Positions 27,142 to 43,519 of a stretch of 64,000 bases of DNA are shown here, one piece after another. The stretch spans positions 744,001 to 808,000 of the forward strand of contig NZ_JAGEMM010000001.1 in the NCBI RefSeq assembly GCF_017921815.1. Reading direction: 5' to 3'. A program made the position numbers and the translations under genes. This stretch comes from Microvirga antarctica. GTDB lineage: Bacteria; Pseudomonadota; Alphaproteobacteria; Rhizobiales; Beijerinckiaceae. The notes below the pieces were generated by a model. It was given only the letters and a program-made list of their open reading frames with translations. It was not told the DNA's origin and did no database searches. How positions within the stretch are numbered: position 1 is the stretch's first letter; every line of letters begins with the position of its first letter.

Positions 27142-28233
27142 TTATGCGGCGCCCTCGTCGAGATCCTCCTCGGTGGGGGTGGCCTGATCAAGGATGCGGT
27201 CGGCGAGCAGCCCGGCATTCTGCCGGATGAGGCCCTCGATCTTGTCGGCGACCTCCGGGTTGTCGCGCAGGAACTGCTTAGAGTTCTCGCGGCCCTGGCC
27301 GAGACGCTGGCTGTCATACGAGAACCAGGCGCCGGATTTCTCGACGATGCCGGCCTTGACGCCAAGATCGATCAGCTCGCCCACCTTGGACACGCCCTCG
27401 CCGAACATGATGTCGAACTCGACCTGCTTGAAGGGCGGCGCCACCTTGTTCTTGACCACCTTCACGCGCACCGAGTTGCCGATCGGATCGTCGCGATCCT
27501 TCAGGGTCGAGACGCGCCGGATGTCGAGACGCACGGAGGCATAGAATTTCAGCGCATTGCCGCCGGTCGTCGTCTCGGGCGAGCCGTACATCACGCCGAT
27601 CTTCATGCGGATCTGGTTGATGAAGATCACCATGGTGTTCGACCGCGAGATCGAGCCGGTGAGCTTGCGCAGGGCCTGGCTCATGAGGCGGGCCTGAAGG
27701 CCGGGCTGGACATCGCCCATCTCGCCGTCGAGTTCCGCCTTCGGGGTCAGGGCCGCCACCGAATCGATCACCAGCACGTCGATGGCGCCGGAGCGCACCA
27801 GCGTGTCGCAGATCTCAAGTGCCTGCTCGCCGGTATCGGGCTGCGAGATCAGGAGATCGTCGAGCGCGACGCCGAGCTTGCGGGCATAAGCGGTGTCGAG
27901 CGCATGTTCCGCATCGACGAAGGCGCAGACGCCGCCCTTCTTCTGCGCTTCGGCCACCGTGTGCAGGGCCAGCGTCGTCTTGCCAGAGGATTCCGGACCG
28001 TAAATCTCGATCACCCGGCCACGGGGCAGCCCGCCGACGCCCAGCGCGATGTCGAGACCGAGCGACCCGGTGGAGACGACCTCGATGTCGTCGATCTTCT
28101 GATTCTTGCCCAACCGCATGATCGAGCCCTTGCCGAAGGACCGCTCGATCTGAGAAAGCGCCGCATCCAGAGCTTTCGACTTGTCTTTATCCATTGATGA
28201 GTTTTCCACCAGTCTCAGAGATGACTGCGACAT
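27142..28233 (-). CDS. recA: RecA recombinase
   Basis: The 363-residue protein forms filaments on single-stranded DNA, drives homologous recombination and activates LexA self-cleavage. Motifs are [19 protein letters not shown] (Walker A), [20 protein letters not shown] (Walker B region), and the DNA-binding loops [20 protein letters not shown] and [23 protein letters not shown] 28233 ([13 protein letters not shown]) matches alphaproteobacterial RecA starts; the open frame running to 28410 crosses the promoter and the mobile element end. The leader is short and the LexA box lies about 90 bases upstream. Confidence 0.97.
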
Positions 28234-28292: not shown

Positions 28293-28335
28293 AATGTACC
28301 TGCTTTGTTCTCAAGAGCAAGTTCTTTTTTTGTTC
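28293..28335 (-). promoter_or_regulatory. recA promoter with alphaproteobacterial LexA (SOS) box
   Basis: GTTC at 28321-28324, seven T residues, and GTTC at 28332-28335 exactly fit the alphaproteobacterial LexA site GTTC-N7-GTTC. On the minus strand it is followed by a likely -35 (TTGCTC, 28315-28320) and, after 16 bases, a -10 (TACATT, 28293-28298). The -35 and -10 calls are inferences; the box is read directly. Confidence 0.8.
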
Positions 28336-28340
28336 TCGTT
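28327..28340 (+). repeat. Target site duplication, left copy
   Basis: TTTTTGTTCTCGTT abuts the left end of the element (GGGATATAGCG begins at 28341). The identical 14 bases follow its right end at 43099. The copy overlaps the proximal half of the recA LexA box. Confidence 0.92.
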
Positions 28341-28530
28341 GGGATATAGCGATCGTTCGGCTGAGCCGCATTTTAGGCACCAGCTGAGCCGGAACTATCC
28401 TCCGCGCCAAGGTCTCGACTGCGGACCTGACCTTTTTCGGCGAGTGCCGTCGTCATCGGCTTCTCTCCGCGGAGAACCCTCCCAAGGGAGGGACTCGGAG
28501 CTGCTTCGCCAAGGGCGTTCCGGCTAACGA
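28341..28530 (+). repeat. Left terminal inverted repeat of the casposon
   Basis: It matches the reverse complement of the right end: 26 of the first 29 bases agree, starting GGGATATAGCGAT. Homology continues with gaps to about 28530, where it corresponds to the 3' coding end of polB. TGAGCCG occurs twice (28362-28368, 28385-28391), 23 bases apart, as in the right repeat. Confidence 0.88.
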
Positions 28531-28535
28531 AGAGT
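28425..28535 (-). pseudogene. Decayed copy of polB 3' end inside left terminal repeat
   Basis: Minus-strand translation reads SRNAL, then [18 protein letters not shown], close to RNAL and LGRVLSGEKPMTKALAEK at the C-terminus of the element's polymerase. The frame then slips relative to polB, so it is not functional. It shows that the terminal repeat extends into coding sequence. Confidence 0.75.
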
Positions 28536-28797
28536 GTGCGGAGCTGCGTGACCGCCAGCGCTTTAGTATGAACGTCGGTCGTCAGACGCCGATCGTCGCC
28601 TACGACCGCGCATTCCAGGTGCGACTCGCCGACACAATCCAGCGCCTGCGCCTGGAGCGGCACTGGAACGGGCGATGCTGCATTGCGCCCGCCTACGCGA
28701 TTAGGCTGGGGGGGGCATGCGGCAACCGTCTAAAACCGTCTTGAGAAACGGGCCAAAATGGCCATAAGTAGGCTTTGATTTGAACGGGGGCCAAGCC

Positions 28798-28971
28798 ATG
28801 CAAAGCATGTCGGCGAAGGAGGCCAAGTACGGCTTCGGACGTTTGATCGACCTGGCTCGCGTCGAACCGGTGTTGGTCGCGAAGCATGGTCGTCCAGTCG
28901 TCGTGGTGATGTCAGTTGAGGAATACGAGAGATTGAAAACAGCGAAGTTGGCGGCGAAGCCAGGAAATTGA
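28798..28971 (+). CDS. Phd/YefM-type antitoxin, no toxin partner seen
   Basis: The 57-residue protein has the Phd/YefM N-terminal fold: SMSAKEAKYGFGRLIDLARV, then PVLVAKHGRPVVVVMSVEEYERL. Such proteins bind their own promoter and neutralise a RelE- or Doc-type toxin. None follows: after a 14-codon frame (28971-29015) comes hsdR. It may be an orphan or act as a regulator of the restriction operon. ATG 28798 is chosen over an upstream TTG at 28780. Confidence 0.75.
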   Translation: MQSMSAKEAKYGFGRLIDLARVEPVLVAKHGRPVVVVMSVEEYERLKTAKLAAKPGN

Positions 28972-29024
28972 TGAAGAGCAAGACGACCCAGCCCGCTGGC
29001 GATAAAGAAAACTGAGCTGCATAA

Positions 29025-32000
29025 ATGGCAATGATCACACCCGAACGCGATCTTGAGGAGGCCTTGGTCTCAAAGCTGAAGGACCTCAAGTACGAATACC
29101 GCCCCGATATCCGAGATCGCGCCACACTGGAGCGAAACTTCCGTGAGAAGTTTGAAAGCCTGAATCGGGTTACTCTCACCGAAGGCGAATTTCAGAGGCT
29201 ACTCGACGAGATCGTCACTCCAGACGTTTTCACTGCTGCCCGAACACTTCGCGAGCGCAATAGCTTCACCCGTGATGACGGCACGCCGCTCAACTACACA
29301 CTCGTCAACATCAAGGACTGGTGCAAGAATTCCTTCGAGGTGGTCAACCAGCTTCGTATCAACACGGACAACAGCCATCATCGGTACGATGTCATTCTGC
29401 TGATCAACGGCGTACCGGTCGTTCAGATCGAACTAAAAACCCTCGGCATCAGCCCGCGTCGTGCCATGGAGCAGATCGTCGAATACAAAAACGACCTTGG
29501 AAACGGCTACACAAAGACGATCTTGTGCTTTCTGCAGCTCTTTATCGTCAGCAACCGCGATCGAACATTCTATTTCGCGAACAACAATGCACGCCAATTC
29601 ACCTTCAATGCCGAAGAGCGCTTTTTGCCGGTCTACGAGTTTGCCGATGTAGACAACAAGAAGATCGTCCACCTCGATAGCTTTGCCGAGACTTTCCTCG
29701 TCAAGTGCACTCTCGGCCAGACGATCAGCCGTTATATGGTTCTGGTCGCAAGCGAGCAGAAGCTCCTGATGATGCGGCCGTATCAGATCTACGCGGTGAA
29801 GGCGATTGTCGACTCCATCGCGCAAGACTGCGGCAATGGCTACATCTGGCACACCACCGGCAGCGGCAAGACGCTGACTTCCTTCAAGGCGTCAACGCTG
29901 CTGAAGGACAATCCGGACATCGAGAAGTGCCTCTTCGTCGTGGACCGAAAGGACCTCGATCGGCAGACGCGCGAGGAGTTCAACAAGTTCCAGGAAGGTT
30001 GCGTTGAGGAAAACACCAACACCGCATCCCTCGTGCGCCGTCTTGTTTCAGATGACTACGCCGACAAGGTCATCGTCTGCACGATTCAGAAGCTCGGCCT
30101 CGCGCTTGACGAGAACAGCAAGCGCAACAAGCAGCAGAAGAAGGACGGCAAGAAGTCATTCAAGGAACAGCTTGAGCCCCTTCGCGACAAACGAATCGCT
30201 TTGATCTTCGACGAATGCCATCGGTCACAGTTCGGCGAAAACCATAAGGCCATCAAGGAGTTCTTCCCGCGGGCGCAGCTCTTCGGCTTCACCGGAACGC
30301 CCATCTTCGATCAGAACGCCGCGCAGCAGAAAATCGAGGACACCCAGGCCAGTATGAAGACGACGGAAGACCTCTTCCAGAAGCGGCTTCATACCTACAC
30401 GATCACGCATGCCATCGAGGACGGAAACGTCCTTCGGTTCCATGTCGACTACTTCAAGCCGCAGGGCAAGACCCTGCCCAAGCCGGGCGAACCGCTGGCC
30501 AAGCGGGCGGTCATCGAGGCGATCCTATCCAAGCACGATGCGGCCACCGGTCAGCGCCGGTTCAACGCTTTGCTCGCCACATCGTCGATCAATGACGCCA
30601 TCGAATACCACCGCCTGTTCGCCGAGATGCATGCGGAGAAGCAAGTCGCTGACCCGGATTTCAAGCCTCTGAACATCGCCTGCGTCTTCTCGCCGCCCGC
30701 CGAGGGCGATCCTGATGTGAGGCAGATCCAGGAAGACCTGCCGCAGGAGAAGGAGGACAACGCTGTCGAGCCGGAGAAGAAGAAGGAGGCCCTAAAGGCC
30801 ATCCTCGCCGACTACAACGCCCACTACGGCACCAACCACAAGATCGGAGAGTTCGACCTGTATTATCAGGACGTGCAGAAGCGCATCAAAGACCAGCAAT
30901 GGCCGGATGCCGACTTGCGCAAGGCTTACCCCAACCAGCCAAACCACAAGATCGACATCACGATCGTGGTGGACATGCTGCTCACCGGCTTTGACTCGAA
31001 GTTCCTGAACACCCTCTACGTCGACAAGAACCTGAAGCATCACGGCCTGATCCAGGCCTTCTCGCGCACGAACCGGGTGCTGAACGCCACCAAGCCCTAT
31101 GGCAATATCCTCGACTTTCGCCAACAGCAGGCGGCCGTCGATACCGCCATCGCCCTATTCTCGGGCGAGGCTGCTGCCGAAAAGGCCCGCGAAATCTGGC
31201 TGGTGGATAAGGCCCCTGTGGTCATCCAGAAACTGGAAACTGCGGTGCAGAAGCTAGACGCTTTCATGAAGTCGCAAGGCCTCGATTGCGCCCCGGAAGG
31301 GGTGCCCAACCTCAAGGGCGACGCGGCGCGCGCGGCCTTCATCGAGCACTTCAAGGAGGTCCAACGCCTCAAGACCCAGCTTGACCAGTACACAGATTTG
31401 ACCCCGGAAAACGCCGCAGTGATCGAACGGGTTCTGCCGCGCGACAATCTGCTTGGGTTCCGCGGTGCCTATCTGGAAACGGCCCAGCGCCTTCGTGCCC
31501 AGCAGAGCAAGGGCCAGGATCAGGGCGACGGAAAGCCCAGCCAGGATGCCGACCAGCTTGATTTCGAGTTCGTCCTCTTCGCCTCGGCCGTCATTGACTA
31601 TGACTACATCATGGGCCTGATCGCCCGCTTTTCCGAGGCGACGCCCGGCAAACAGAAGATGAGCCGCGAGGAGCTAATCGGCCTGATCCAGTCCGACGCC
31701 AAGTTCATGGACGAGCGTGAGGACATCGCCGCCTACATCGCCACGCTGAAGGCGGGCGAGGGTCTGAGCGAGAAGGCCATCCGCGAGGGCTATAGCCGCT
31801 TCAAGGCCGAGAAGAACGCGGCTGAGCTGGCGGGCATTGCGGGCAAGCACGGCCTTGCCGCCGAGACGCTTCATGGGTTCGTCGATGGCATCCTGCAACG
31901 GATGATCTTTGATGGCGAGGCGCTGACCGATCTGATGGAGCCCCTCGGCCTGAATTGGAAGGCGCGCCGGGTGAAGGAATTGGACCTGATGGCCGACCTA

Positions 32001-32066
32001 ATGCCGCTTCTGTTGAAGCGCGCCGGTGGCCGCGAGATTTCGGGGCTCAGCGCTTATGAACAGTAA
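29025..32066 (+). CDS. hsdR: Type I restriction enzyme, R subunit
   Basis: The 1,013-residue motor and nuclease subunit carries the nuclease motif as YDVILL with D122 and QIELKT with E136 and K138. It has Walker A TTGSGKT (277-283), DECH at 396-399, and later helicase motifs (FGFTGTPIF; MLLTGFDSK; LIQAFSRTNR). With HsdS and HsdM it would cut unmodified DNA after translocation. The length is normal. hsdS begins 11 bases before its stop, so the genes are translationally coupled. Confidence 0.95.
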   Translation: MAMITPERDLEEALVSKLKDLKYEYRPDIRDRATLERNFREKFESLNRVTLTEGEFQRLLDEIVTPDVFTAARTLRERNSFTRDDGTPLNYTLVNIKDWCKNSFEVVNQLRINTDNSHHRYDVILLINGVPVVQIELKTLGISPRRAMEQIVEYKNDLGNGYTKTILCFLQLFIVSNRDRTFYFANNNARQFTFNAEERFLPVYEFADVDNKKIVHLDSFAETFLVKCTLGQTISRYMVLVASEQKLLMMRPYQIYAVKAIVDSIAQDCGNGYIWHTTGSGKTLTSFKASTLLKDNPDIEKCLFVVDRKDLDRQTREEFNKFQEGCVEENTNTASLVRRLVSDDYADKVIVCTIQKLGLALDENSKRNKQQKKDGKKSFKEQLEPLRDKRIALIFDECHRSQFGENHKAIKEFFPRAQLFGFTGTPIFDQNAAQQKIEDTQASMKTTEDLFQKRLHTYTITHAIEDGNVLRFHVDYFKPQGKTLPKPGEPLAKRAVIEAILSKHDAATGQRRFNALLATSSINDAIEYHRLFAEMHAEKQVADPDFKPLNIACVFSPPAEGDPDVRQIQEDLPQEKEDNAVEPEKKKEALKAILADYNAHYGTNHKIGEFDLYYQDVQKRIKDQQWPDADLRKAYPNQPNHKIDITIVVDMLLTGFDSKFLNTLYVDKNLKHHGLIQAFSRTNRVLNATKPYGNILDFRQQQAAVDTAIALFSGEAAAEKAREIWLVDKAPVVIQKLETAVQKLDAFMKSQGLDCAPEGVPNLKGDAARAAFIEHFKEVQRLKTQLDQYTDLTPENAAVIERVLPRDNLLGFRGAYLETAQRLRAQQSKGQDQGDGKPSQDADQLDFEFVLFASAVIDYDYIMGLIARFSEATPGKQKMSREELIGLIQSDAKFMDEREDIAAYIATLKAGEGLSEKAIREGYSRFKAEKNAAELAGIAGKHGLAAETLHGFVDGILQRMIFDGEALTDLMEPLGLNWKARRVKELDLMADLMPLLLKRAGGREISGLSAYEQ

Positions 32067-33384
32067 GACGACGTCCACTGCCACCAAGCTTGGCGGAAGC
32101 TCCACATTCACGCCCAAGAGGCGCTTCCCGGAGTTTCAACACGCGCCGGCATGGGAGCCAGTGAGCCTTCGAAAGGCGTCTGTTCCGGTTGACCAGCGCG
32201 TGGGCGAGCGGAAGTTGACCCCAGTCAGCATTTCCGCAGGAATAGGATTCGTCCCACAAGCCGAGAAGTTCGGCAGGGATATCTCGGGAAACCAGTATCA
32301 GCTTTACACGCTGGTTCGGGATGGCGACTTTGTTTTCAACAAGGGGAACTCGCTCAAATTCCCTCAGGGCTGCATATACCTGCTAGAGGGATGGGGGCGG
32401 GTCGCTGCCCCAAATGTCTTCATCGCCTTCCGCCTGAAGGAAGGCTATTCGAACGGGTTCTTTCAGAACTGCTTTGAACAGAATCAGCACGGAAAGCAAC
32501 TCAAGAGGCATATCACCAGCGGCGCACGTAGCAACGGTTTGCTGAACATCAGCAAAGACACGTTCTTTGGCGTCGAAATTCCCACGCCAAGCCTGTTCGA
32601 GCAGGAAAAAATCGCCGACTGCCTGGCCTCTGCGGACGCGCTGATTGAGGCGCAGGCGCGGAAGGTGGAGGCGCTGAGGGCCCACAAGAGGGGCCTGATG
32701 CAGCAGCTATTCCCCCAGGAAGGCGAAACCCAACCCCGCCTCCGCTTCCCGCAGTTCGAGACTGCGGGGGATTGGGAGGAGATCCCGCTTTCTGCACTGG
32801 TGAGCGCGCTGAATGCTGGTGTAAGCGTCGATTCGGGTGACCGACCCGCGATGAGTCATGAAATTGGTGTGTTAAAGACGAGTGCCGTTAAGAATGGAAT
32901 TTTCAAACCGCTTGAGAACAAGGTTGTATTTGATGATGAAGAAGTCAACCGCGTAAGAGAGCCAGTGCGCGCAGATACAATCATCATTAGTCGCATGAAT
33001 ACACCTGCTCTCGTTGGGGCTAACGCATACGTAAAGGACGACTGTCCGAATATCTTTCTTCCTGATCGCCTCTGGGCTGCTAAGCCAAGATCCGGGACGT
33101 ATATGCGGTTTGTTGCGCTAATGCTGGGCTCAGATATGGGACGAGCATCCCTATCGAATCTGGCAGGAGGTAGTTCTGGCTCCATGAAGAACATCTCCAA
33201 ACCAAGGGTCCTCGAACTCTTGGTCATGGCTCCTTCACTTCCCGAACAGCAACGCATTGCCGACTGCCTCACCTCCCTCGACGACCTCATCGCCGCCGAG
33301 ACCCAAAAGCTCAACACACTGCGAACCCATAAGAAGGGGCTGATGCAGCAGCTTTTCCCAACGGTGGAGGGGGATGACGTATGA
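32056..33384 (+). CDS. hsdS: Type I restriction-modification, specificity subunit
   Basis: The 442-residue protein has the two-fold HsdS plan: two target recognition domains, each followed by a conserved helical spacer (LFEQEKIADCLASADALIEA with LRAHKRGLMQQLFPQ; LPEQQRIADCLTSLDDLIAA with LRTHKKGLMQQLFP). The near-identical spacers are the halves of the circular arrangement. The second recognition domain (about 32,800-33,200) is visibly more A/T-rich, as usual for exchangeable domains. ATG 32056 overlaps the hsdR end; the stop overlaps the next gene as ATGA. The target sequence cannot be predicted. Confidence 0.93.
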   Translation: MNSKTTSTATKLGGSSTFTPKRRFPEFQHAPAWEPVSLRKASVPVDQRVGERKLTPVSISAGIGFVPQAEKFGRDISGNQYQLYTLVRDGDFVFNKGNSLKFPQGCIYLLEGWGRVAAPNVFIAFRLKEGYSNGFFQNCFEQNQHGKQLKRHITSGARSNGLLNISKDTFFGVEIPTPSLFEQEKIADCLASADALIEAQARKVEALRAHKRGLMQQLFPQEGETQPRLRFPQFETAGDWEEIPLSALVSALNAGVSVDSGDRPAMSHEIGVLKTSAVKNGIFKPLENKVVFDDEEVNRVREPVRADTIIISRMNTPALVGANAYVKDDCPNIFLPDRLWAAKPRSGTYMRFVALMLGSDMGRASLSNLAGGSSGSMKNISKPRVLELLVMAPSLPEQQRIADCLTSLDDLIAAETQKLNTLRTHKKGLMQQLFPTVEGDDV

Positions 33385-34589
33385 GCGCCATCCGTACCTA
33401 TCAGAGCTTGGGCAAGCTTGTGACACGGCTACGGGACGATCTGAACGACGCTGATCTCGTGCTGCTTTACGCCTACAACCGCACCGGCAAGACGCGTCTG
33501 TCGATGGAGTTCAAAGACGCAGGCAAGCGCAAGACGAGGAAGAACCCGACCGGGACGCCTGACACCCTTTATTTCAACGCCTTCACAGAAGATCTTTTTG
33601 TCTGGGAAAACGACCTTGAAGGTGACAGCGTCCGCCGTCTACAGCTGAACGAGAAGTCCTCCTTCTTCAACGCTATGACCGAACTCGCGTTGGACGAAAC
33701 GATTGCCCAATATCTTTCCAGATACGCCGATTTCGATTTCGACTTCACCTACAAAGAGGTTCCGCAGGGCAAAGAGACCGTCTCCAAACCAGATTTCGTG
33801 AGCTTCGAAAAAGACGGTGTGCCCAACATCAAGGTGTCGCGCGGCGAGCAGAACATATTTATCTGGTGCGTGTTCATGGCGATCTGCGAGCGGATGCTCG
33901 ATGGTCATGACTCTTATCAGGGAAAGAAGTACCTCTACATCGACGACCCCATCTCATCGCTGGATGACAACAACGCGATCTCCGTCGCCTGCGATTTGGT
34001 CAAGCTCCTCCGTCGGGCGGCCACGCGGAATGACGGGACCGGAGCGCCCGCCCCGATCAAGGTGATCTTCTCTTCCCATCACGCTTTGTTCTTCAACGTG
34101 ATGTGCAACGAAGTCGGCAGGCGGATCGAGGGCGAGGGGAAAGTCACCCACAAGCGCTATTTCCTGCACCGCCCCAATGGAGAGGGTGCCTACACGCTAC
34201 AGGCGACCGAGGATACGCCGTTCTTTCACCACGTCGCCACCTTAGCCGAATTGCAGCGTGCCGCCGATCCCATCAAGGGAAAGCTCTACACATTCCACTT
34301 CAATGCCCTGCGCAGCGTCATGGAGAAGACGGCCTCTTTCTTCGGGCATCCAAGCATGGCCTTCTGCCTCAAGGCGCTCGACAACGAGGAAGACCGGGCG
34401 CTGTTCAACCGTGCCCTGAACCTGCTGAGCCACGGTGCCTATGCCATCAATGAACCCACTGAAATGGGCGAGGACAACAAGGCACTTTTCCGCCGCATCC
34501 TGAGCGAGTTCATCAAACGGTTTGAGTTTGCCCTACCGGGAATTATTCCTGCCCACGCCAAAGCCCTGGCGCCTGCGCCCGCCCCTTAG
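33381..34589 (+). CDS. prrC: PrrC-like ATPase, probable anticodon nuclease linked to R-M system
   Basis: The 402-residue protein has an ABC/AAA-13 type ATPase: degenerate Walker A YAYNRTGKTRL (residues 31-40), signature-like SRGEQNIFIW (153-162), Walker B KYLYIDDPISSLDD (183-196) and H-loop IFSSHHALFF. The C-terminal part shows R311, E315 and H351. This matches in order and spacing the Arg-x3-Glu...His triad of the anticodon nuclease PrrC (R320, E324, H356; 396 residues). PrrC is silenced by its type I R-M host and cuts tRNA-Lys when a phage disarms that enzyme. Here the gene sits between hsdS and hsdM with an ATGA overlap. Nuclease activity is inferred. Confidence 0.7.
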   Translation: MSAIRTYQSLGKLVTRLRDDLNDADLVLLYAYNRTGKTRLSMEFKDAGKRKTRKNPTGTPDTLYFNAFTEDLFVWENDLEGDSVRRLQLNEKSSFFNAMTELALDETIAQYLSRYADFDFDFTYKEVPQGKETVSKPDFVSFEKDGVPNIKVSRGEQNIFIWCVFMAICERMLDGHDSYQGKKYLYIDDPISSLDDNNAISVACDLVKLLRRAATRNDGTGAPAPIKVIFSSHHALFFNVMCNEVGRRIEGEGKVTHKRYFLHRPNGEGAYTLQATEDTPFFHHVATLAELQRAADPIKGKLYTFHFNALRSVMEKTASFFGHPSMAFCLKALDNEEDRALFNRALNLLSHGAYAINEPTEMGEDNKALFRRILSEFIKRFEFALPGIIPAHAKALAPAPAP

Positions 34590-34603
34590 GAAGCACCTGC
34601 ACA

Positions 34604-36226
34604 ATGAACGACCAAAACAAAAAGCAACTGGGCAAAACGCTCTGGAACATCGCCGATACACTTCGCGGCGCCATGAACGCGGACGATTTCCGCGACTACA
34701 TGCTGTCTTTCCTGTTCCTGCGCTACCTCTCCGACAATTATGAGATGGCCGCGAAGAAGGAGCTCGGGCGCGACTACCCAGATCCCAACGCAATCGGCAA
34801 CGGTGGGCGCTCGCCCCTCTCTGTTTGGTACGCGCAGAACCCCGATGACGTGGTGGCTTTTGAAAAGCAGATGCGCCTCAAGGCGCACTACGTCATCAAG
34901 CCGGAACACCTGTGGACCAGTATCGCCCATATGGCGCGCACCCAGAACGACGAACTATTGAACACCCTGCAGGCGGGCTTCAAATACATCGAGAACGAGT
35001 CGTTCCAGAGCACGTTCGGTGGCCTGTTCTCGGAAATCAATCTCGGCTCTGAAAAGCTCGGCCGGACATACGCTGATCGCAACGCCAAACTCTGCGCCAT
35101 CATCACCGAGATTGCCAAAGGGCTCGCCGACTTCTCCGCGGATGTGGATGCGCTTGGCGACGCCTACGAATATCTGATCGGCCAATTCGCCGCCGGTTCG
35201 GGCAAGAAGGCGGGCGAGTTCTATACCCCGCAGCAGGTGTCAGACATCCTTTCCGCTATCGTGACGCTCGACAGCCAGGAGCCCGCAACCGGTAAGAAAG
35301 AACGGCTCGCCAGCGTGCTCGATTTCGCGTGCGGCTCTGGCTCGCTACTGCTGAATGTGCGCAAGCGTATGGGGCCGCACGGCATCGGCAGAATCTACGG
35401 GCAAGAAAAGAACATTACCACCTACAACCTCGCGCGCATGAACATGCTGCTGCACGGCGTAAAAGACACGGAGTTCGAAATCTACCACGGCGACACGCTG
35501 ACCAACGACTGGGACATCCTGCGCGAGTTGAATCCCGCCAAGAAGCCCTCCTTCGATGCCGTCGTGGCCAACCCGCCCTTCAGCTTGCGCTGGGAACCGA
35601 CTGAGGCGATGGGCGATGATGTTCGGTTCAAGAACTATGGCCTGGCACCCAAGTCGGCTGCGGACTTTGCCTTCCTGCTGCACGGTTTGCACTATCTAAA
35701 GGATGAGGGCGTGATGGCCATCATCCTCCCCCACGGGGTGCTGTTCAGAGGCGGGGCGGAAGAGCGCATCCGCACTAAGCTGCTGAAGGATGGCCACATC
35801 GACACGGTCATCGGCCTGCCTGCGAACCTCTTCTATTCGACGGGCATCCCGGTCTGCATCCTTGTTCTGAAGAAGTGCAAGAAGCCCGACGATGTGCTCT
35901 TCATCAACGCGGCGGAGCACTTTGCGAAGGGCAAGCGCCAGAACCAGCTGACCGATGATCACATCGCCAAAATCATCGAAACCTACCAATTCCGAAAGGA
36001 AGAGGAGCGCTACTCCAAGCGCGTGAGCATGGAGCGAATTGCTGAGGAGGGCTTCAACCTCAACATCTCTCGATACATCAGCACCGCCGTCGGCGAGGAA
36101 GAGATTGATCTGTCGGCCACCCAGGGCGAACTGGTTGAGCTTCAAAAGCAGATCCAGGAGGCAACTTCGAAGCACAACGCCTTCTTGGAGGAACTCGGGC
36201 TTTCTCTGTTGCCGGGGGCCGAATGA
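34604..36226 (+). CDS. hsdM: Type I restriction-modification, N6-adenine methyltransferase subunit
   Basis: The 540-residue protein has the HsdM N-terminal helical domain (LGKTLWNIADTLRGAMNADD, then YMLSFLFLRYLSDNY), the SAM motif VLDFACGSGSLLL (from residue 238) and the catalytic NPPF (323-326) in VVANPPFSLRW. It methylates adenine with HsdS. It starts 14 bases after the PrrC-like gene. The order R-S-PrrC-M is unlike the E. coli prr locus (M-S-PrrC-R), but all parts are intact. Confidence 0.95.
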   Translation: MNDQNKKQLGKTLWNIADTLRGAMNADDFRDYMLSFLFLRYLSDNYEMAAKKELGRDYPDPNAIGNGGRSPLSVWYAQNPDDVVAFEKQMRLKAHYVIKPEHLWTSIAHMARTQNDELLNTLQAGFKYIENESFQSTFGGLFSEINLGSEKLGRTYADRNAKLCAIITEIAKGLADFSADVDALGDAYEYLIGQFAAGSGKKAGEFYTPQQVSDILSAIVTLDSQEPATGKKERLASVLDFACGSGSLLLNVRKRMGPHGIGRIYGQEKNITTYNLARMNMLLHGVKDTEFEIYHGDTLTNDWDILRELNPAKKPSFDAVVANPPFSLRWEPTEAMGDDVRFKNYGLAPKSAADFAFLLHGLHYLKDEGVMAIILPHGVLFRGGAEERIRTKLLKDGHIDTVIGLPANLFYSTGIPVCILVLKKCKKPDDVLFINAAEHFAKGKRQNQLTDDHIAKIIETYQFRKEEERYSKRVSMERIAEEGFNLNISRYISTAVGEEEIDLSATQGELVELQKQIQEATSKHNAFLEELGLSLLPGAE

Positions 36227-36384
36227 GCTCCGCCATACCCACGATTGTGCCACCCCGAGAGCTAGGGAAGCCAGAATGTTGCGCTTTGCTGACAATGCCG
36301 CCTGCGGTTCGCGTGCATTACTTCGCCTGATTTGAACCATCGTGGTTATGATCGGCCTGAAAAACGGACACGGCGGACACAAGC

Positions 36385-36416
36385 AAAAGCCTCGCTGGCG
36401 AGAGCCAAGCGGGGCT
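36385..36416 (-). terminator. Terminator-like hairpin downstream of the tRNA fragment
   Basis: On the minus strand AGCCCCGCTTGGC pairs with GCCAGCGAGGCT (one bulge, one G-T), followed by TTTT. It lies 33 bases after the tRNA CCA end, the place of a natural tRNA terminator. It could also stop hsdM readthrough from the other side. Confidence 0.6.
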
Positions 36417-36448
36417 CTACACAAACTCTCGAATTAGCTTGTGCATTT

Positions 36449-36497
36449 TGGTTGCTGGAACAGGATTTGAACCTGCGGCCTTCAGGTTATGAGCCTG
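36449..36497 (-). pseudogene. 3' fragment of an initiator tRNA-Met (CAT) gene
   Basis: The minus strand holds a Met anticodon loop CTCATAA closed by CAGG/CCTG, then GAAGG, a T arm with loop TTCAAAT (typical of initiator tRNA) and an acceptor 3' strand ending GCAACCA. The 5' half (acceptor 5' strand, D arm) is missing; homology stops near 36497. It is therefore not a working tRNA but the kind of fragment left by integration at a tRNA 3' end. Confidence 0.8.
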
Positions 36498-36526
36498 GGT
36501 TGCGGAGCGACGCGAAGTATGAATGT

Positions 36527-37663
36527 TCAACGCTGGCTGACGACCGTGCTGACAAGTGCTCTGGCCAGTTGCGGCGTAAGCCGCACTACGCCGTCCGCGC
36601 GGAGCACAAAATCAGCCGGGCTAAAAACATGCGATTTCACGAAATCAAGCACCTTCCGATCAACCTTCGGCCGCTCCGGCTCCATCAGATCGAAAATGAA
36701 TTTCGACGAGCCATCGGTGCCTTCATGCATAATTCCGATCGTCGGATCATAGCCCTCAGTAATTGCCTTGAGCCGCACCTCTGTTTCGAGAACCGAATAG
36801 GCGTAATTCAACATCGCGTTGACGGGGTGGCCCGCATTTCGATTTCCAGCGAGGTGATAGGGCGATGAACGTTGGCCCAAGACGGCCCAATTGTCGGGAA
36901 TTGGCCTGCGACTAGTGCCACGCCATTTTATTGGAATTCCTTGCCAGCTCCGGAAATAGGATGCGGCGCAGTTTGCCTCCAGCACACGCAAGTCAGTGAT
37001 TGATTGCGGTGGATTTTCCTCCAGCCGCGTCAGGGCTGCATAGGCGGATTTCATTGCAAGTTCCCATTTATCCGATTTTCGCACCACCTTTTCGAGGGTG
37101 ATGATGCTCGCCTCGATTTTCCCGGTAATGATCCCACACGAAAACTGCATCCGGCGTTCGAAAATTTCACGGGTTTCGAGTTGCCAGCGAACACGGTGCG
37201 AATTGGCGGAATAACCGGATGCTCCGGAAATGCAGACGACCTCGCCCTTCCAATTAATTTGAGCGAATGCGACTTTTTGTTCGGACAGCCAAGCCAGAAC
37301 ATCAAAAGAAATGCTTCCGTTCCCGTCCAATACGATAATTTGCTCCGGGAGCGATAAATCGCCCTTAAAATAGCGATACGTCTGGCGGGTCTGGGGATAA
37401 TGCGTAAAACCATTTCGGATTGTCAGGGCTCCACCTTCAATCCGGAGCGAGATACCATGTCCGGCGAGTGTGAGCGCCCGGGGCGCTTTTGCCCGCTTCG
37501 TTCGTCGTAAGGACGTTTTTTCCAACCGGTCTTGCCACATGCCCGAGCGAAGCGCCCAAACCTCGTCGTCCGGTTCGATTTCTTCGATGCTTGAATTCGC
37601 TATTTCCGCAAACCGTAGATAGGTGGATTTGGCAGGAGCATCTTGCCGAGACCGAGCCGTCAT
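36527..37663 (-). CDS. cas1: Solo Cas1 homologue, probable casposase (integrase)
   Basis: The 378-residue protein has the Cas1 N-terminal beta domain (LTLAGHGISLRIEGGALTI, then YFKGDLSLPEQIIVLDGNG and SISFDVLAWLSEQKVAFAQI) and the catalytic helical domain. The metal ligands are present: E229 in VLEANCAASYFRSW, H313 in TIGIMHEGTD, and D325 in FDLMEPERPKVD (also E328, D335). NAMLNYAYSVLETEV is also typical. Cas1 makes new CRISPR spacers by integration; in casposons it inserts the whole element. With no Cas2, effector or CRISPR array nearby but a PolB and terminal repeats, the second role fits. An N-terminal extension of about 60 basic residues may bind DNA. Confidence 0.92.
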   Translation of the reverse strand: MTARSRQDAPAKSTYLRFAEIANSSIEEIEPDDEVWALRSGMWQDRLEKTSLRRTKRAKAPRALTLAGHGISLRIEGGALTIRNGFTHYPQTRQTYRYFKGDLSLPEQIIVLDGNGSISFDVLAWLSEQKVAFAQINWKGEVVCISGASGYSANSHRVRWQLETREIFERRMQFSCGIITGKIEASIITLEKVVRKSDKWELAMKSAYAALTRLEENPPQSITDLRVLEANCAASYFRSWQGIPIKWRGTSRRPIPDNWAVLGQRSSPYHLAGNRNAGHPVNAMLNYAYSVLETEVRLKAITEGYDPTIGIMHEGTDGSSKFIFDLMEPERPKVDRKVLDFVKSHVFSPADFVLRADGVVRLTPQLARALVSTVVSQR

Positions 37664-37687
37664 ATTCAGCCCTTTGCAGTGAATTTT

Positions 37688-38809
37688 CTAAAGTCCATTT
37701 CTAGCTTTTTCTACGGCTGATATCCATCGTTTCACGCTGATGGGGTCGCGCAATGCCGCGCGAATTTCCTTTTTGCTGAATACAATTTTGAAGCGGTGGT
37801 CATCCCGTCCCAGCCGTTGAATTTCGCGAACATCGCAAAGCATTTTGCGACTTTCCATCGCCATTGCCGCAATTTCTTCTGATGACAATATTGCGCCGGG
37901 GACGATGCGAAGACGGAGCATGACAAGTACGATCCCATCACCAAACCCATCTGGGGCCTTTCTCGCGATCCATGCGGACAATCGGATCCCACCAGCTTTA
38001 TCCCCAAATACCCATTGAAACACCTCAAAGAGTGCCAAGACGAGCTCGAGTACATTTGCCGCGTCACTGCGGGCTTGAGCTATTTCTGTGGCCGGGGCGT
38101 CCGCGGCCGAGGCCAATGTCCCCAATGCAAGCGCACTTGATAAATTTTGTAGAACGGACGGGAGCTCCTCAAGCCATTGGGGGCTATTCCCCATGATATT
38201 CAGTCGTTCAGACTCTCCAAGGTCGAATGCCTTGATTATAGCTGTTTCGTCACCCGACCGCGTATCGCCTGTAACTGGAGTTTCAAAGCTTTCGAACGTT
38301 CTAGTTGCCGTTTCGATTAGAACACGGAAAAGCATCGGCAATTCGGAGCTGTCCAGTCGCCGCACAATTCGTGAAAATACAAAGTTGTCTAATGGAAAAT
38401 GCGCGGCCTTGTCTGCCAGGGTTTCCGCGTCCTCATCGCGGTCCGACCTCGCGACCATCCATGGTAAAATTTTGAGGGTACGGTCCGCCCATTCCCCAAG
38501 TCGCTTGAGCCGGGGACGCCAATGCCGCTCCGCGACCGCAAATCCCTGTCGCCATAAATGTAATCCGACATAGTCGACCCGGTTCTTTCTGAGGAACAGG
38601 GACTGCGCCGCCTTAATCTGCGCGCAAGTGCCAGATGGGTAAAGGACCACGCTTCCCCGGTAGGCTTCTGCCACCTGCTTGACGGGTGGCAGCAATCCCT
38701 CTCTTCGCCATCGATTAACCTGATCTGGGGTGACACCCGTCTCTTGGAGACAGGCGTCAACCTGATCCTGCGTCTCCCATTGCCTGCTCTCCGCCTCCAA
38801 GTCCGCCAT
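37688..38809 (-). CDS. MerR-like DNA-binding protein of unknown function
   Basis: The 373-residue protein begins with a MerR-type winged helix (residues about 15-70: TGVTPDQVNRWRREGLLPPV, then VVLYPSGTCAQIKAAQSLFL). It continues with a long helical region of no known family. It is 24 bases upstream of cas1 on the same strand, so the two are probably one transcript and it may regulate the element or assist Cas1. ATG 38809 is preferred; the frame is open to 38986 but would overlap the divergent gene start at 38888. The 78 bases between the divergent starts should hold both promoters. Confidence 0.65.
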   Translation of the reverse strand: MADLEAESRQWETQDQVDACLQETGVTPDQVNRWRREGLLPPVKQVAEAYRGSVVLYPSGTCAQIKAAQSLFLRKNRVDYVGLHLWRQGFAVAERHWRPRLKRLGEWADRTLKILPWMVARSDRDEDAETLADKAAHFPLDNFVFSRIVRRLDSSELPMLFRVLIETATRTFESFETPVTGDTRSGDETAIIKAFDLGESERLNIMGNSPQWLEELPSVLQNLSSALALGTLASAADAPATEIAQARSDAANVLELVLALFEVFQWVFGDKAGGIRLSAWIARKAPDGFGDGIVLVMLRLRIVPGAILSSEEIAAMAMESRKMLCDVREIQRLGRDDHRFKIVFSKKEIRAALRDPISVKRWISAVEKARNGL

Positions 38810-38887
38810 CAAGAGCCCTACGCCAAACGCCGATTTCCAGGATTCGCGCGCCCGATTGTCCAGCTCCTTCGAATCGGGAGCCGGACA

Positions 38888-39466
38888 ATGGCAAGCAAGA
38901 GAATACGCGACTTCAAGAAAGAGTATCAGGCCCGCATCGCCCGTGGCCTGGCAAAAGGGAAAAGTCGGGCGCAGTCCCGCGGACACGCTAGGGCGAATGA
39001 TCTGCCTTCAGGTACGGCCGGGACGATCGACGCCGAGAGCCCGCTGGAAAAGGCCCTAAAACTGATGAAGCAGGGCATGTCGCAAAAGCAAGCGGCGAAG
39101 GCTGTAGGCGTTTCGGCTGAAAAGCTCCGAAGGTATCAAAAGCAGAATACGACCTCCGTTCGCCAGGGACGGCGATGGGTGATCTCCGATAGCCGTCCGG
39201 TCTCCATGGTCATGGCGACGCGCGGGAAACTGAAAACAGTCACTCTTCCCCGTGACGCTGGCGGCGACATCGGTCGGCACTGGGTGGCCATTAACAAGTT
39301 CTTGGAAACTAATGATCCGTCCCACCTCAAGCCTTTCGTTGGCCGAGGCCTGCGCGATAATCAGAGTCTGCTCCATCCATTCGAGACCCGCCCAAACATC
39401 TTGCGGAAGCTCGATAGTGTGGGTGAGCTTTCGTTTGTCGATATCTACCGCCAGACGGTGCAGTGA
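38888..39466 (+). CDS. Helix-turn-helix protein of the casposon
   Basis: The 192-residue protein has a very basic N-terminus (MASKRIRDFKKEYQARIARG) and a helix-turn-helix at about residues 55-87 (LMKQGMSQKQAAKAVGVSAE, then KLRRYQKQ), followed by a beta-rich part. I do not recognise the family. It is divergent from the MerR-like gene and heads the rightward transcript with the unknown protein and polB, so it is a candidate regulator of transposition genes. Confidence 0.6.
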   Translation: MASKRIRDFKKEYQARIARGLAKGKSRAQSRGHARANDLPSGTAGTIDAESPLEKALKLMKQGMSQKQAAKAVGVSAEKLRRYQKQNTTSVRQGRRWVISDSRPVSMVMATRGKLKTVTLPRDAGGDIGRHWVAINKFLETNDPSHLKPFVGRGLRDNQSLLHPFETRPNILRKLDSVGELSFVDIYRQTVQ

Positions 39467-39476
39467 GAGCACCGTC

Positions 39477-39842
39477 ATGGATAAGTTTGAACGATACATG
39501 AGCCGTGCGAGAGCATGCCGCCGGGCCGGAAGGGCTCAGCCCAGCGCGCTTTGGGGGTTCGAGAGTTGGGCAAGTGACCGGCGAGAATCCCATCACGTTG
39601 CCCGAAAGAAATATGGCGACGCCACGTTGGACATCCCAGTCAGCATGCACCGCGAGTTGACGCGCCGCCAAATGGAAGAACATCCTGAAGAGGGGCCTGA
39701 TTCTTCAAATCCAACGGAAAGACTGGGCCGTCACCTTCTGGGCTTGTCGGATATTTTCGAGTGTTTTGCTGACTTCTTTCGCTATCTCGGCGAAACGCTA
39801 ATCACCGCTGCCAAAAATGGGGCGGCATCAAGTGGGAGATAA
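39477..39842 (+). CDS. Small protein of unknown function upstream of polB
   Basis: The 121-residue frame starts at ATG 39477, ten bases after the previous stop, and ends three bases before polB. The N-terminus is basic (MDKFERYMSRARACRRAGRA) and the C-terminus has an amphipathic helical run (LGLSDIFECFADFFRYLGET). There is no known family. Tight spacing on both sides supports it as a real member of the polB operon. Confidence 0.55.
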   Translation: MDKFERYMSRARACRRAGRAQPSALWGFESWASDRRESHHVARKKYGDATLDIPVSMHRELTRRQMEEHPEEGPDSSNPTERLGRHLLGLSDIFECFADFFRYLGETLITAAKNGAASSGR

Positions 39843-39845
39843 AAT

Positions 39846-42800
39846 ATGTCAAGCGATCGTGTCTTTGCAAATGACATGGTCGAGCCGATCGATCGACAAA
39901 TCATTTCCCTCCGGGCCTACGTGACGCGGCCTCCGAAAGAGGCCAAGCGGAGCCGCCAAAGTACCGATCGGCTCCCCCGGACCCCAGCGAGCGAATGGGT
40001 CCTCGTCTTCGACTGCGAAACCCGGACCACGCCCGATCAGCGATTGCGATTCGGTGCGTACCAGCTTCGATATCGAGGCCAGATCTGGGAACGAGGGGTG
40101 TTTTACGAACCAGCCGTGCTCTCCCTGGATGAAGAAACCCTGCTTCGGAACTTTATTGGAAACGACCCACCGGGTCCTGACGGCGAACGCGTCTGCTTCA
40201 GAACGCGGTCTGAATTTGTCGAGGAAGTATTTTATCAGTCCGCCTTCGACGTCGGCGCGCAGATTGTCGGATTCAATTTGCCCTTTGATCTCTCACGCCT
40301 AGCCATTCGCCATAGCAGCGCACGCGGGTCGATGCGCGGCGGCTTCAGCCTCGAATTGGCCGGATCGCGCGAGCACATCGTCGTCAAACACCTTTCACAA
40401 CGGGCTGCGTTGATCAGGTTCGCTGGCAAACGCCTTACAAGGGGCGGGAAAGGGGACTTCAACCCGGACGAAAACCATGAGGTCGATAGAGAGGCGGGGC
40501 CGGATCGCGGCTATTTCGTCGACGTAAAGACCCTGGCAGCAGCATTAACAAGCGGGTCGCATTCGCTGGACTCGCTTTGCAGACTTCTTGAAGTACCAAC
40601 CGCAAAGGAGGCGTCAGACGACCACGGTGGGCCATTGACGGACGAATATGTACGCTATGCGTTGCGCGACGTGCAAACGACCTGGGAGTGCTTTGCCAAA
40701 CTGGCCAAACGGTTTTCGACCTTCGGTCTGGTTGGGACCGGTCTCTACGACCTCTACAGCGAGGCCAGTCTCGGCAAGGCCTATCTCAAAACAATGGGCA
40801 TCAAGCCGTGGCGGGACGTTCAGCCCGACTTTCCACCGCATCTCATCGGCCATATTCTGAGCGCCTATTACGGCGGCCGATCAGAGGTCCACATTCGCCG
40901 GGAAATTGTACCGGTGATCCACTGCGACTTCCTGTCGATGTATCCCACTGTCTGCACTCTCATGTCTTTATGGACATTCGTCAGGGCGGATGGGATCAAA
41001 TCCGCGGACAGGACCAAGGAAATCCGGCAATTGGTGGCTACGCCACGCGCTCAGTTAGTCGAACGACTTCGCCACAAGGAGGGATGGCAGGGGCTCACGG
41101 CGCTCGTCCAGGTTCGACCCAAGCGAAATCTGTCCCCCGTCCGGGCTGAATATGCGGACGCCGAGACCGCAACCATCGGATTGAATTTCCTCACATCGGA
41201 CGAACCAATGTGGTTCACCCTCGCCGATGTCTTGGCCTCACGGATTCTGACCGGCGAAACACCGGAAATCGTTTCGGCGATTCAGTTTGAGCCCTCTCAA
41301 CAGCAAACTGATCTCATGACGATCAAGGTTGCGGGGCGGGAAATTGACCCCGCATCCGATGATTTTTACCAGCGCCTCATCATCCACCGGAATGCGCTGA
41401 AGGCGCAATTGAAATCGGCCTCGGACACCGAAAGGCCTGCGCTCAAAGCTGATGAACAGGCGATCAAGGTTCTCGCCAATGCGACGAGTTACGGCATATT
41501 CGTTGAGCTGAACGGGGAGGAATATAACGCGGCGAAGCCCATGTTGGCTTATGGCGCTGGCCCAAAACCGCTGAAATTCAGTTCAAAGAAGTTTGAAAAG
41601 CCCGGTCGATATTTTCATCCCTTGCTCGGCACGCTGATTACAGGCGCGGCGCGTTTGATGCTCGCGCTGGCCGAACATCAGGTCGCCGAACAGAAGCTCG
41701 ATTGGGCCTTTTGCGATACCGACAGTATCGCCATCGCCAATCGATGTGGATTGCCGCCAGACGAGTTTAAATCAAGAGCGCTCCTGGTTCGCGATTGGTT
41801 CAAGGATCTCAATCCCTACGATGAAGACCGCTCCATTCTGCAACTGGAAGATGTGAACTTCCCGGTTGGAAAAGCCGGGGATTTGGCATCCCTTGAACCG
41901 CCGCTTTGTCTCGCTGTCTCTGCAAAGCGCTACGTTCTTTTCAACCGGAACGGAACCGCCAACATCATTCGCAAGGCGTCCGGCCACGGCCTCGGCCATT
42001 TGTTGGCCCCATACGACGAGCTCGCAGTCCAGCGCCGGGCTCGCATCGAGCGGATTGGTGTTCCCCTTTGGCAAGAGGACCTTTGGCAGGAGATCATCCG
42101 CGCAGCGCAGTCGGATACACCCGATCAGACCCGATTCATGGAAATGACCGGGTTCGATGCCCCTGCTGGCAGCCAGTACGCAGCGACTACGCCGGAACTG
42201 CTGTCTTGGTTTAAGGGATACAATGAGCGCCAGCCCGAGGGGCATCGCGTCTTTCCATTCGGCTTTCTGCTTTCCCTGCAAGCGAAGTCCCGGCTTGAAA
42301 TGGCCAAGGACCAACCCGAAGGTTTATCCGATCAACTTTGGCGCATGCGCGAGCCACGTCCTGCCGCACCATTTTTCAAACGGTCAACTGATGCGAAGGA
42401 CCACGCCTTTGATCGTGATCTGGATATCCCCATTCCCGCGTCCTGGCTCAAATCCCACGGGCGCAGCCTGATCCGATATCATATGCATCCTGAGACGAAA
42501 TTCCGGGGTGGTGAAGCTGATCAGCGGGGACCGCTCACCCGCCGTCATGTGTTCGCTCTGAGCCATCGATCGATTGGCAAAGAAAGCGATAGCATCGAAG
42601 AGAATGAGTTTATCGGAGAAGATCTAGCCCAGCTCAAGCAGCCCCTGCTTTCAACAGATCGCCAAAAGCTGTTGGAATTCATTTCCAGCACGCAGGAAAA
42701 GCGCCGGATCAGCGATCGTGCTTTGATCGATAAAGCTAACGTTTCTCATCACACGTTGCGAAAGCTCCGCCAAGGGGAGAGCATTGATAATCGGTCGCTG

Positions 42801-43034
42801 GAGGGTCTGATTCGGGCTGCAAATTATTTCGCGAGCGAGGCCGATTTCAGCAAGGCGGCCAACGAGATAGCCCTCGAAGGCCTCAGGCGCCTCCACACCC
42901 GCTTTGGCGGTCGGAACGCCTTGGCGAAGCATCTCCGCGTTTCAGGTCCCTACCTTGGGCGGGTTCTCAGCGGAGAAAAGCCGATGACCAAGGCACTAGC
43001 CGAAAAGGTCAAATCCGCAGTTCGGGACATTTGA
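39846..43034 (+). CDS. polB: Family B DNA polymerase of the casposon
   Basis: The 1,062-residue protein has all family B motifs: Exo I FDCET (D56, E58), Exo II GFNLPFD (N144, D148), Exo III YALRD (Y271, D275), Pol A DFLSMYP (D361), Pol B KVLANATSYG (K541-G550) and Pol C CDTDS (D624, D626). It should copy the element DNA with 3'-5' proofreading. After the core comes an extra C-terminal region of about 400 residues, ending in two HTH-like segments (ALIDKANVSHHTLRKLRQGE; NALAKHLRVSGPYLGRVLSG). It is longer than most mobile-element PolBs. GGGAG precedes ATG 39846, and its 3' end forms part of the right terminal repeat. Confidence 0.92.
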   Translation: MSSDRVFANDMVEPIDRQIISLRAYVTRPPKEAKRSRQSTDRLPRTPASEWVLVFDCETRTTPDQRLRFGAYQLRYRGQIWERGVFYEPAVLSLDEETLLRNFIGNDPPGPDGERVCFRTRSEFVEEVFYQSAFDVGAQIVGFNLPFDLSRLAIRHSSARGSMRGGFSLELAGSREHIVVKHLSQRAALIRFAGKRLTRGGKGDFNPDENHEVDREAGPDRGYFVDVKTLAAALTSGSHSLDSLCRLLEVPTAKEASDDHGGPLTDEYVRYALRDVQTTWECFAKLAKRFSTFGLVGTGLYDLYSEASLGKAYLKTMGIKPWRDVQPDFPPHLIGHILSAYYGGRSEVHIRREIVPVIHCDFLSMYPTVCTLMSLWTFVRADGIKSADRTKEIRQLVATPRAQLVERLRHKEGWQGLTALVQVRPKRNLSPVRAEYADAETATIGLNFLTSDEPMWFTLADVLASRILTGETPEIVSAIQFEPSQQQTDLMTIKVAGREIDPASDDFYQRLIIHRNALKAQLKSASDTERPALKADEQAIKVLANATSYGIFVELNGEEYNAAKPMLAYGAGPKPLKFSSKKFEKPGRYFHPLLGTLITGAARLMLALAEHQVAEQKLDWAFCDTDSIAIANRCGLPPDEFKSRALLVRDWFKDLNPYDEDRSILQLEDVNFPVGKAGDLASLEPPLCLAVSAKRYVLFNRNGTANIIRKASGHGLGHLLAPYDELAVQRRARIERIGVPLWQEDLWQEIIRAAQSDTPDQTRFMEMTGFDAPAGSQYAATTPELLSWFKGYNERQPEGHRVFPFGFLLSLQAKSRLEMAKDQPEGLSDQLWRMREPRPAAPFFKRSTDAKDHAFDRDLDIPIPASWLKSHGRSLIRYHMHPETKFRGGEADQRGPLTRRHVFALSHRSIGKESDSIEENEFIGEDLAQLKQPLLSTDRQKLLEFISSTQEKRRISDRALIDKANVSHHTLRKLRQGESIDNRSLEGLIRAANYFASEADFSKAANEIALEGLRRLHTRFGGRNALAKHLRVSGPYLGRVLSGEKPMTKALAEKVKSAVRDI

Positions 43035-43098
43035 GCAGAGGTTTTTCCGGCTCAGGTGGTGCCCAGACCGCGGCTCACGCGAACTATCGCTATATCCC
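42915..43098 (-). repeat. Right terminal inverted repeat of the casposon
   Basis: On the minus strand it begins GGGATATAGCGAT and mirrors the left end. It holds TGAGCCG twice (43071-43077, 43048-43054; 23 bases apart). The inner part is the coding end of polB, whose stop is at 43032-43034. Confidence 0.88.
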
Positions 43099-43112
43099 TT
43101 TTTGTTCTCGTT
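43099..43112 (+). repeat. Target site duplication, right copy
   Basis: TTTTTGTTCTCGTT follows the terminal CCC of the element and is identical to 28327-28340. It lacks the outer GTTC of the LexA box, so only the recA-side copy keeps a full SOS site. Confidence 0.92.
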
Positions 43113-43222: not shown

Positions 43223-43519
43223 ATGAACATTCAAACCGCTGTAGACGCGATCAACTCGAAGCGGTGTCTAGAAGTCCAATATGACGGCTATCGTCGCATC
43301 GTCGAAGTCCACCAATGCGGATACACAGCCGACGAGCACGCCATCATGCTGGTTTGGCAAGTGAGCGGCGGAAGCAAGAGCGGAGAACCTGCCGGCTGGA
43401 AGCTCTTACGCCTTGATGAGACGCGAAGTCTTCACATGACTGAGGAAGCGTTGAGAGGGCCACGAGAAGGCTATCAGAGAAGCAATAAGGCCATATTTCG
43501 GATTGTTGCCAGGCTATGA
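43223..43519 (+). CDS. Small WYL-domain-like protein
   Basis: The 98-residue protein (MNIQTAVDAINSKRCLEVQY, then DGYRRIVEVHQCGYTADEHA, later GWKLLRLDETRSL) resembles an isolated WYL-type ligand-sensing fold, usually found attached to DNA-binding domains. It has none, so its role is unclear. Before the casposon inserted, it would have been divergent from recA with a short shared promoter region. Confidence 0.7.
   Translation: MNIQTAVDAINSKRCLEVQYDGYRRIVEVHQCGYTADEHAIMLVWQVSGGSKSGEPAGWKLLRLDETRSLHMTEEALRGPREGYQRSNKAIFRIVARL

Follow-up and report, generated by a model that had tools for sequence, protein, structure and literature searches.

A casposon of Microvirga antarctica inserted at the LexA/SOS operator of recA

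The adaptation machinery of CRISPR (clustered regularly interspaced short palindromic repeats) is proposed to stem from casposons, of which those of bacteria are little studied. Four bacterial casposons are named in the accessible text of a 2014 survey (PMC4046053). The subject of this analysis is a casposon found in a 64,000-nucleotide stretch of the Microvirga antarctica genome (assembly GCF_017921815.1, contig NZ_JAGEMM010000001.1, positions 744,001 to 808,000 of the forward strand). The whole stretch is called the window, and coordinates are counted from its first nucleotide. The casposon spans positions 28341-43098 (14,758 bp). Its target is the LexA/SOS operator of recA, which is new in this analysis, and the element very probably belongs to a lineage of casposons using this operator as insertion site.

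The sequence traits of casposons are all found in the element: a Cas1 outside the CRISPR types, a B-family DNA polymerase (PolB), inverted ends, and a target duplication of about 14-15 bp. A CRISPR-type Cas1 with a nearby array, as expected of a CRISPR adaptation module, is not found in the window. From its sequence, the element appears to work like those of casposon family 3. HenMar-C1 of Henriciella marina, a family 3 element, is likewise described in the accessible part of the survey with a bacterial host, a solo Cas1, PolB, helix-turn-helix (HTH) proteins, inverted ends, and a duplication near 15 bp (PMC4046053). Judged against this description, the window element differs from family 3 in having no HNH match and in its recA operator target; the casposon sites named in the same text are tRNA (transfer RNA) genes, aEF-2 (archaeal elongation factor 2), and intergenic sites. 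The archaeal family 2 elements AciBoo-C1 and MetMaz-C1 also resemble the window element in the integrase likeness of Cas1, a duplication of about 14-15 bp and, according to the accessible parts of two reports, a fixed safe site beside an essential gene (PMC6614799, PMC10359463). Their sites are at tRNA genes, whereas an SOS operator is used here, and again there is no HNH match in the window element. A likeness is also seen in Tn7 at attTn7. Tn7 inserts beside an essential gene without harm, downstream of glmS. Its transposase is unrelated and its site does not lie in an operator; the comparison of Tn7 to casposons is made in the accessible survey text (PMC4046053).

The insertion and its surroundings are made up of the following features.

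27142..28233, minus strand: recA, the host gene adjoining the insertion (TIGR02012, 2.7e-172; start taken from the translation)
28321..28335, plus strand: LexA/SOS box GTTCTTTTTTTGTTC of recA, kept whole (fits GTTCN7GTTC)
28327..28340, plus strand: target site duplication, left copy (perfect 14 bp)
28341..28551, plus strand: left terminal inverted repeat (long and imperfect; outer 13 bases perfect)
42883..43098, minus strand: right terminal inverted repeat (overlaps the 3' end of polB)
43099..43112, plus strand: target site duplication, right copy (perfect 14 bp)

The direct repeat TTTTTGTTCTCGTT is perfect over 14 bp at 28327-28340 and 43099-43112, with no third copy in the window. The outer 29 bases of the two ends pair as an inverted repeat at 26 positions, the outer 13 being identical, and the inverted homology extends over 219 aligned columns with 78% identity. 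A preliminary description of this DNA, made from its sequence alone, had reported both the 26 of 29 matches and the flanking 14-bp repeat; the recount from 28341 and 43098 returns the same value, and both copies of the repeat are confirmed. Chance pairs were counted in positions 20001-50000 with a threshold of a direct repeat of at least 12 and inverted ends of at least 18/29. One pair is found in the real sequence and three in total in 100 block shuffles, and the observed values (14 bp and 26/29) are well over the threshold. The left end contains a decayed inverted copy (28373-28663) of the 3' coding end of polB (42883-43034), so that the inverted repeat includes coding sequence.

Between these ends lie nine genes, none of which has an internal stop.

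29025..32066, plus strand: hsdR, type I restriction subunit, cargo (TIGR00348, 1.3e-108; PADLOC REase_I)
32056..33384, plus strand: hsdS, type I specificity subunit, cargo (PF01420, 1.5e-13; PADLOC, 6.3e-96)
33381..34589, plus strand: prrC-like anticodon nuclease, cargo (PADLOC PrrC, 1.3e-126)
34604..36226, plus strand: hsdM, type I methyltransferase, cargo (TIGR00497, 1.3e-117)
36527..37663, minus strand: cas1, casposase (PF01867, 9.3e-35; E229, H313, D325; tree position)
37688..38812, minus strand: MerR-like HTH protein, helical in its C-terminal part (weak Pfam MerR match; AlphaFold confidence score pLDDT 84.6)
38888..39466, plus strand: second HTH protein, conserved beside polB (tblastn matches in 42 of 87 compared loci)
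39477..39842, plus strand: small open reading frame (ORF) (L004 and L005 have ORFs in the corresponding position that are similar by eye)
39846..43034, plus strand: polB, B-family DNA polymerase with an HTH-like C-terminal end (PHROG 1907; motif residues)

The Cas1 residues E229, H313, and D325 are found at the positions given in the preliminary description, and the six motifs that it assigned to the polymerase also hold: D56/E58, N144/D148, Y271/D275, D361/Y366, K541/Y549-G550, and D624/D626 are invariant across 12 aligned homologues. These are residues of the exonuclease and polymerase motifs. PolB matches PHROG family 1907 ('DNA polymerase', 5.1e-11); no polymerase model matches it at E 0.01 in Pfam or NCBIfam, and the PDB contains no sequence match. 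The AlphaFold model of the MerR-like protein shows a local MerR likeness to PDB folds and nothing at E 0.001, and the small ORF matches no Pfam family. Among the element proteins scanned against Pfam and NCBIfam, no integrase or transposase family reaches the curated cut-off; an IS21 match at 0.005 is far below it.

With its nine genes, the element is intact at the level of sequence, and both key proteins are unbroken, as had been proposed. The alternative that it is a former casposon, now immobile and retained for its restriction-PrrC cargo, is somewhat unlikely. It draws on the presence of a single Cas1 gene in the genome, on the longer and imperfect left end, and on a near relative in Methylocystis (L004) with an interrupted cas1 and no recognisable ends. 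Genes without internal stops, identical outer 13 bases at the two ends, and a perfect duplication argue against it. On the contig of the Methylocystis relative (sp. B8; L142:10748-11850), cas1 is split over two frames, and this close relative is apparently immobilised.

The left copy of the 14-mer overlaps the SOS box of recA at 28321-28335. After insertion the whole box, together with the stretch up to recA, remains on the recA side. The consensus GTTCN7GTTC is that given for Caulobacter in the accessible text of PMC9578287, and GTTCTTTTTTTGTTC is presumably used as such in M. antarctica. Neither a tRNA nor a tmRNA (transfer-messenger RNA) gene is present in the window as a candidate target.

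The box was searched in 61 related genomes, 55 of which match it with at most two mismatches, and 30 loci of 3 kb were fetched. The box lies beside recA in 19 of them (that of the window and 18 others); the remaining 11 (L083-L086, L093, L095, L099-L101, L103, and L110) were dropped. It is undivided in all 18 other genomes, with a variant form in L090 and, in L102, two matches to half of the box, of which one falls in the promoter of recA, and the end-like motif GGGRTATAG is absent from these 18 loci. In 17 of these 18 the 3-kb locus also contains cckA, the gene that lies beyond the element in the window. These undivided loci are the empty site at the genus level; the far flank has diverged, and the alignment resumes only from cckA. 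A doubled 14-mer without an insert, which the preliminary description had named as contrary to an insertion, is not found among them.

In the proposed mechanism, Cas1 would link the free element through its two 3' ends to target positions separated by 14 bp, and filling in of the gaps would then make the 14-bp duplication. PolB may make or repair the element DNA, and the HTH proteins may act in pairing the two ends or in target choice. The sequence on the recA side could play the role of a leader, as for the Aciduliprofundum boonei casposase and CRISPR Cas1. The site would be a safe haven comparable to the tRNA 3' ends and elongation factor 2 gene used by archaeal casposons or to attTn7, in that the SOS box stays whole, and the defence cargo (type I restriction and PrrC) may pay for carriage.

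An SOS-gated version, in which LexA on the operator blocks the site so that integration, and perhaps exit, occurs mainly when LexA is off under DNA damage, is unlikely. In its favour, the duplicated 14 bp include one GTTC LexA half-site in all four elements seen from both ends. Against it, no SOS box is present at the promoters of the element genes, and archaea are not known to have LexA. The published data on Methanosarcina mazei fall on both sides: excision frequencies differ by treatment and are highest under mitomycin C in one strain, but the effect of stress is small overall (PMC10359463). SOS control of the element's own genes was considered and rejected, as the two exact GTTCN7GTTC matches inside the element lie in polB and downstream of cas1.

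Five more casposons, each in a different genome, share this insertion point in the recA operator (L005, L040, L012, G101, and G885), and the neighbour matches the RecA family in all six insertions. In every case the insertion point is the same within one base, and cas1 is read towards recA. In the elements seen from both ends (that of the window, L005, G101, and G885) the 14-bp duplication is perfect and the cut is GTTCNN^NNNNNGTTCNNNNN^, and G885 keeps this cut position despite differing spacer and downstream bases. Five of the six group with L003 and L004 in a Cas1 clade with 99/98 support, in a tree of 44 chosen rows, two of which (L139 and the partial L040) were added by hand. The MerR-like protein as the cause of recA targeting was rejected, since homologues also occur in elements at stem-loops (e.g., L006 and L041). 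The casposon at L005:844-15110 carries a DRT3 reverse-transcriptase pair and SLOG, TIR, and ThsB-like genes.

It is very unlikely that recA is a chance hotspot of a clade without a fixed site. Such an impression could arise from few samples, here six, at a promoter that is well conserved among the hosts. Nevertheless, the same point and the same orientation are used in six of six cases by elements with widely different cargo and Cas1, and the cut is kept in G885 although the spacer and downstream bases differ.

The Cas1 of the element has 6opm as its best sequence relative in the PDB (1.6e-19; the next match is at 1.6e-10). The PDB title of this entry reads only 'CRISPR-associated endonuclease Cas1'; we take it to be the M. 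mazei casposase. In a tree of 66 Cas1 rows, 44 rows including that of the window form a group with 100/100 support, apart from 22 reference Cas1s. The references consist of five annotated CRISPR Cas1s and 17 low-identity Cas1s, 13 of which adjoin CRISPR-like arrays. Note that 11 partial or over-long rows and loci with a Cas1 of less than 250 residues were left out of this tree, and that the program warned of possible misplacement of the long rows L077 and L129, the latter joining beside the 44-row group. The group comes from Pseudomonadota-type hosts or genomes of this class in 43 cases, the remaining row (L046) being from an Armatimonadetes bin. The window Cas1 groups with those of Henriciella (L034 and L037) and Nitrosomonas, in a tree built without published family reference sequences.

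There is no second Cas1 gene in the host genome, both matches being pieces of the element's cas1, and no exact-repeat array was found in the 64-kb window. The phylogeny called for in the preliminary description thus places Cas1 outside the CRISPR clade, and a CRISPR remnant was rejected on the tree position, the single Cas1 gene, and the lack of an array in the window. That the locus is left over from CRISPR adaptation, or is an island moved by another enzyme with cas1 as a passenger, is extremely unlikely: CRISPR Cas1 profiles do match the protein, but besides these observations cas1, HTH, and polB genes are found as a set between matching ends in many loci, and the scanned element proteins include no integrase or transposase family at the cut-off.

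Several points weigh against a casposon lineage specialised for the recA operator. No movement of the element has been seen. Archaeal casposases are absent from the rows of the Cas1 tree. L040 and L012 are seen from one end only and fit within one base; the box of L012 is less regular, and L012 (row L124) branches near the recA group without support. The recA-site label needs two changes on the 44-row tree, and within the 99/98 clade the insertion site is placed for five members but not for L003 and L004; a search for the ends of the Methylocystis element L004 and for the second end of L012 found neither. No HNH family is found among the ten scanned proteins, and the sole PF01844 match in the genome lies outside the element. 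According to the accessible survey text, all family 2 and 3 casposons have an HNH endonuclease gene (PMC4046053), and as none is found in the window element, it is not filed in family 3.

In genome surveys with a cut-off of E 1e-20 or better, in each of which the host genome is counted, the numbers of genomes with such a Cas1 are 3 of 397 for the order, 4 of 385 for the class, 7 of 347 for the family, and 1 of 101 for the relatives (0 of 100 without the host). IMG/VR searched with peptide patterns gave no match. A plasmid search gave no full-length relative, and the annotated proteins among 30 of its 50 matches are CRISPR Cas1s or a hypothetical protein. To call casposons rare in bacteria, as the preliminary description did, is fair, though an alphaproteobacterial casposon was already known in Henriciella marina, as described in the accessible part of PMC4046053. 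Absent from the preliminary description are the SOS operator as target, the other elements that use it, and the defence cargo.

The targets of relatives outside the recA group are different. For these, 62 loci were scanned for the end motif, and motif matches inside genes and weak end pairs in L020, L072, and L080 were dropped; the counts refer to the 19 elements with both ends (18 and L125). Judged by predicted folding, most relatives use short stem-loops, some of them terminator-like, as target and duplication. When the folding of the 26 nt outside the right-hand end is set against that of 300 stretches drawn at random from the locus concerned, p is at most 0.05 in 18 of 19 elements (the exception is L019, 0.24), and at the left-hand end it exceeds 0.05 in three (L009, 0.13; L025, 0.07; L019, 0.36). 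For five recA-site elements, p is above 0.9. T-runs follow the stem-loop in the manner of intrinsic terminators in L013, L021, L024, L026, L033, and L041, and some sites seen from one end have no stem-loop (L016, L017, L046, L054, and L055). The duplication of the relatives is 12-17 bp long (median 15, n=18, with ends set at GGGGTA). According to one study, target recognition by the A. boonei casposase depends mainly on the stretch 9-15 bp upstream of the cut (PMC6614799).

At three loci (L023:3828-3844, L038:8467-8482, and L043:611-626), a pair of casposon ends is oriented face to face, with one 15-16-bp target copy between them. These resemble tandem elements and, in this respect, the repeated units that make up a CRISPR array. 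Archaeal casposons are known to insert in tandem (PMC6563490).

The cargo of the window element has the order hsdR-hsdS-prrC-hsdM. The E. coli prrC locus, in which type I restriction is combined with an anticodon nuclease, likewise has prrC among the hsd genes. From this general description the two sets are alike, while that of the window is casposon-borne. The PrrC-like protein has R311xxxE315 and H351, which we take to be its functional residues. In a test of chosen, mostly longer cargo genes (eight elements against PADLOC and a ninth against NCBIfam), defence models match in eight of the nine elements, two uncertainly; as genes and elements were hand-picked, this is not a rate. Besides the window element and UBA5336 (see below), L005 has the DRT3 pair with TIR and ThsB-like genes, L026 (11689-15301) has genes matching LmuA, LmuB, and LmuC of Lamassu, L041 has type III restriction, and L034 has an Avs2-like gene and a REase domain. 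Less certain are a candidate PDC-M60A in L037 and, in G885, a helicase matching many models with an HNH restriction-like gene. Three cargo genes of G101 gave no defence match. This cargo points to a transfer of anti-phage systems between proteobacteria by casposons.

Another kind of cargo is found in Hyphomonadaceae UBA5336 (L030/L145; G1118 contig 29). Between its ends at 5553 and 18825, which share the stem-loop duplication CCCCGCTTTCGCGGGG, lie the casposon cas1 and polB together with cas9 (6e-174), a type II cas1 (2.6e-67), cas2 (5.5e-17), and a repeat array (36-bp repeats, 30-bp spacers). By its gene content, this casposon, on one metagenome-assembled contig, carries what is predicted to be a complete type II CRISPR-Cas9 locus.

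A broader picture can be offered tentatively. Proteobacterial casposons may be transposons with defence cargo whose attachment sites lie in regulatory DNA, mostly stem-loops (often terminator-like) that become direct repeats. In one lineage the site would have changed to the SOS operator of recA, and LexA may gate insertion there. Duplication of a stem-loop, with copies shared between elements, could have been the start of a palindromic CRISPR repeat array, and one casposon now carries CRISPR-Cas9. The stem-loop targets bear on the origin of palindromic CRISPR repeats. The fixed recA-operator site provides a defined target for testing a bacterial casposase and may connect it to the SOS state. 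A literature search, from which subscription literature was mostly outside the scope so that unpublished status is not established, returned no report of the recA-operator site, of stem-loop targets, or of a casposon carrying CRISPR-Cas9.

Some smaller features remain to be described. A 98-aa ORF (43223-43519) between the right duplication and cckA matches no family in Pfam, NCBIfam, or PHROGs and has no match in the 30 related 3-kb loci. The GC content per kilobase is 0.52-0.62 within the element and 0.58-0.70 outside. GC-rich palindromes of the CTCCC...GGGAG type serve as targets in several hosts (L036, L047, L119, L009, L023, and L037) and may be dispersed repeats resembling repetitive extragenic palindromic (REP) sequences.

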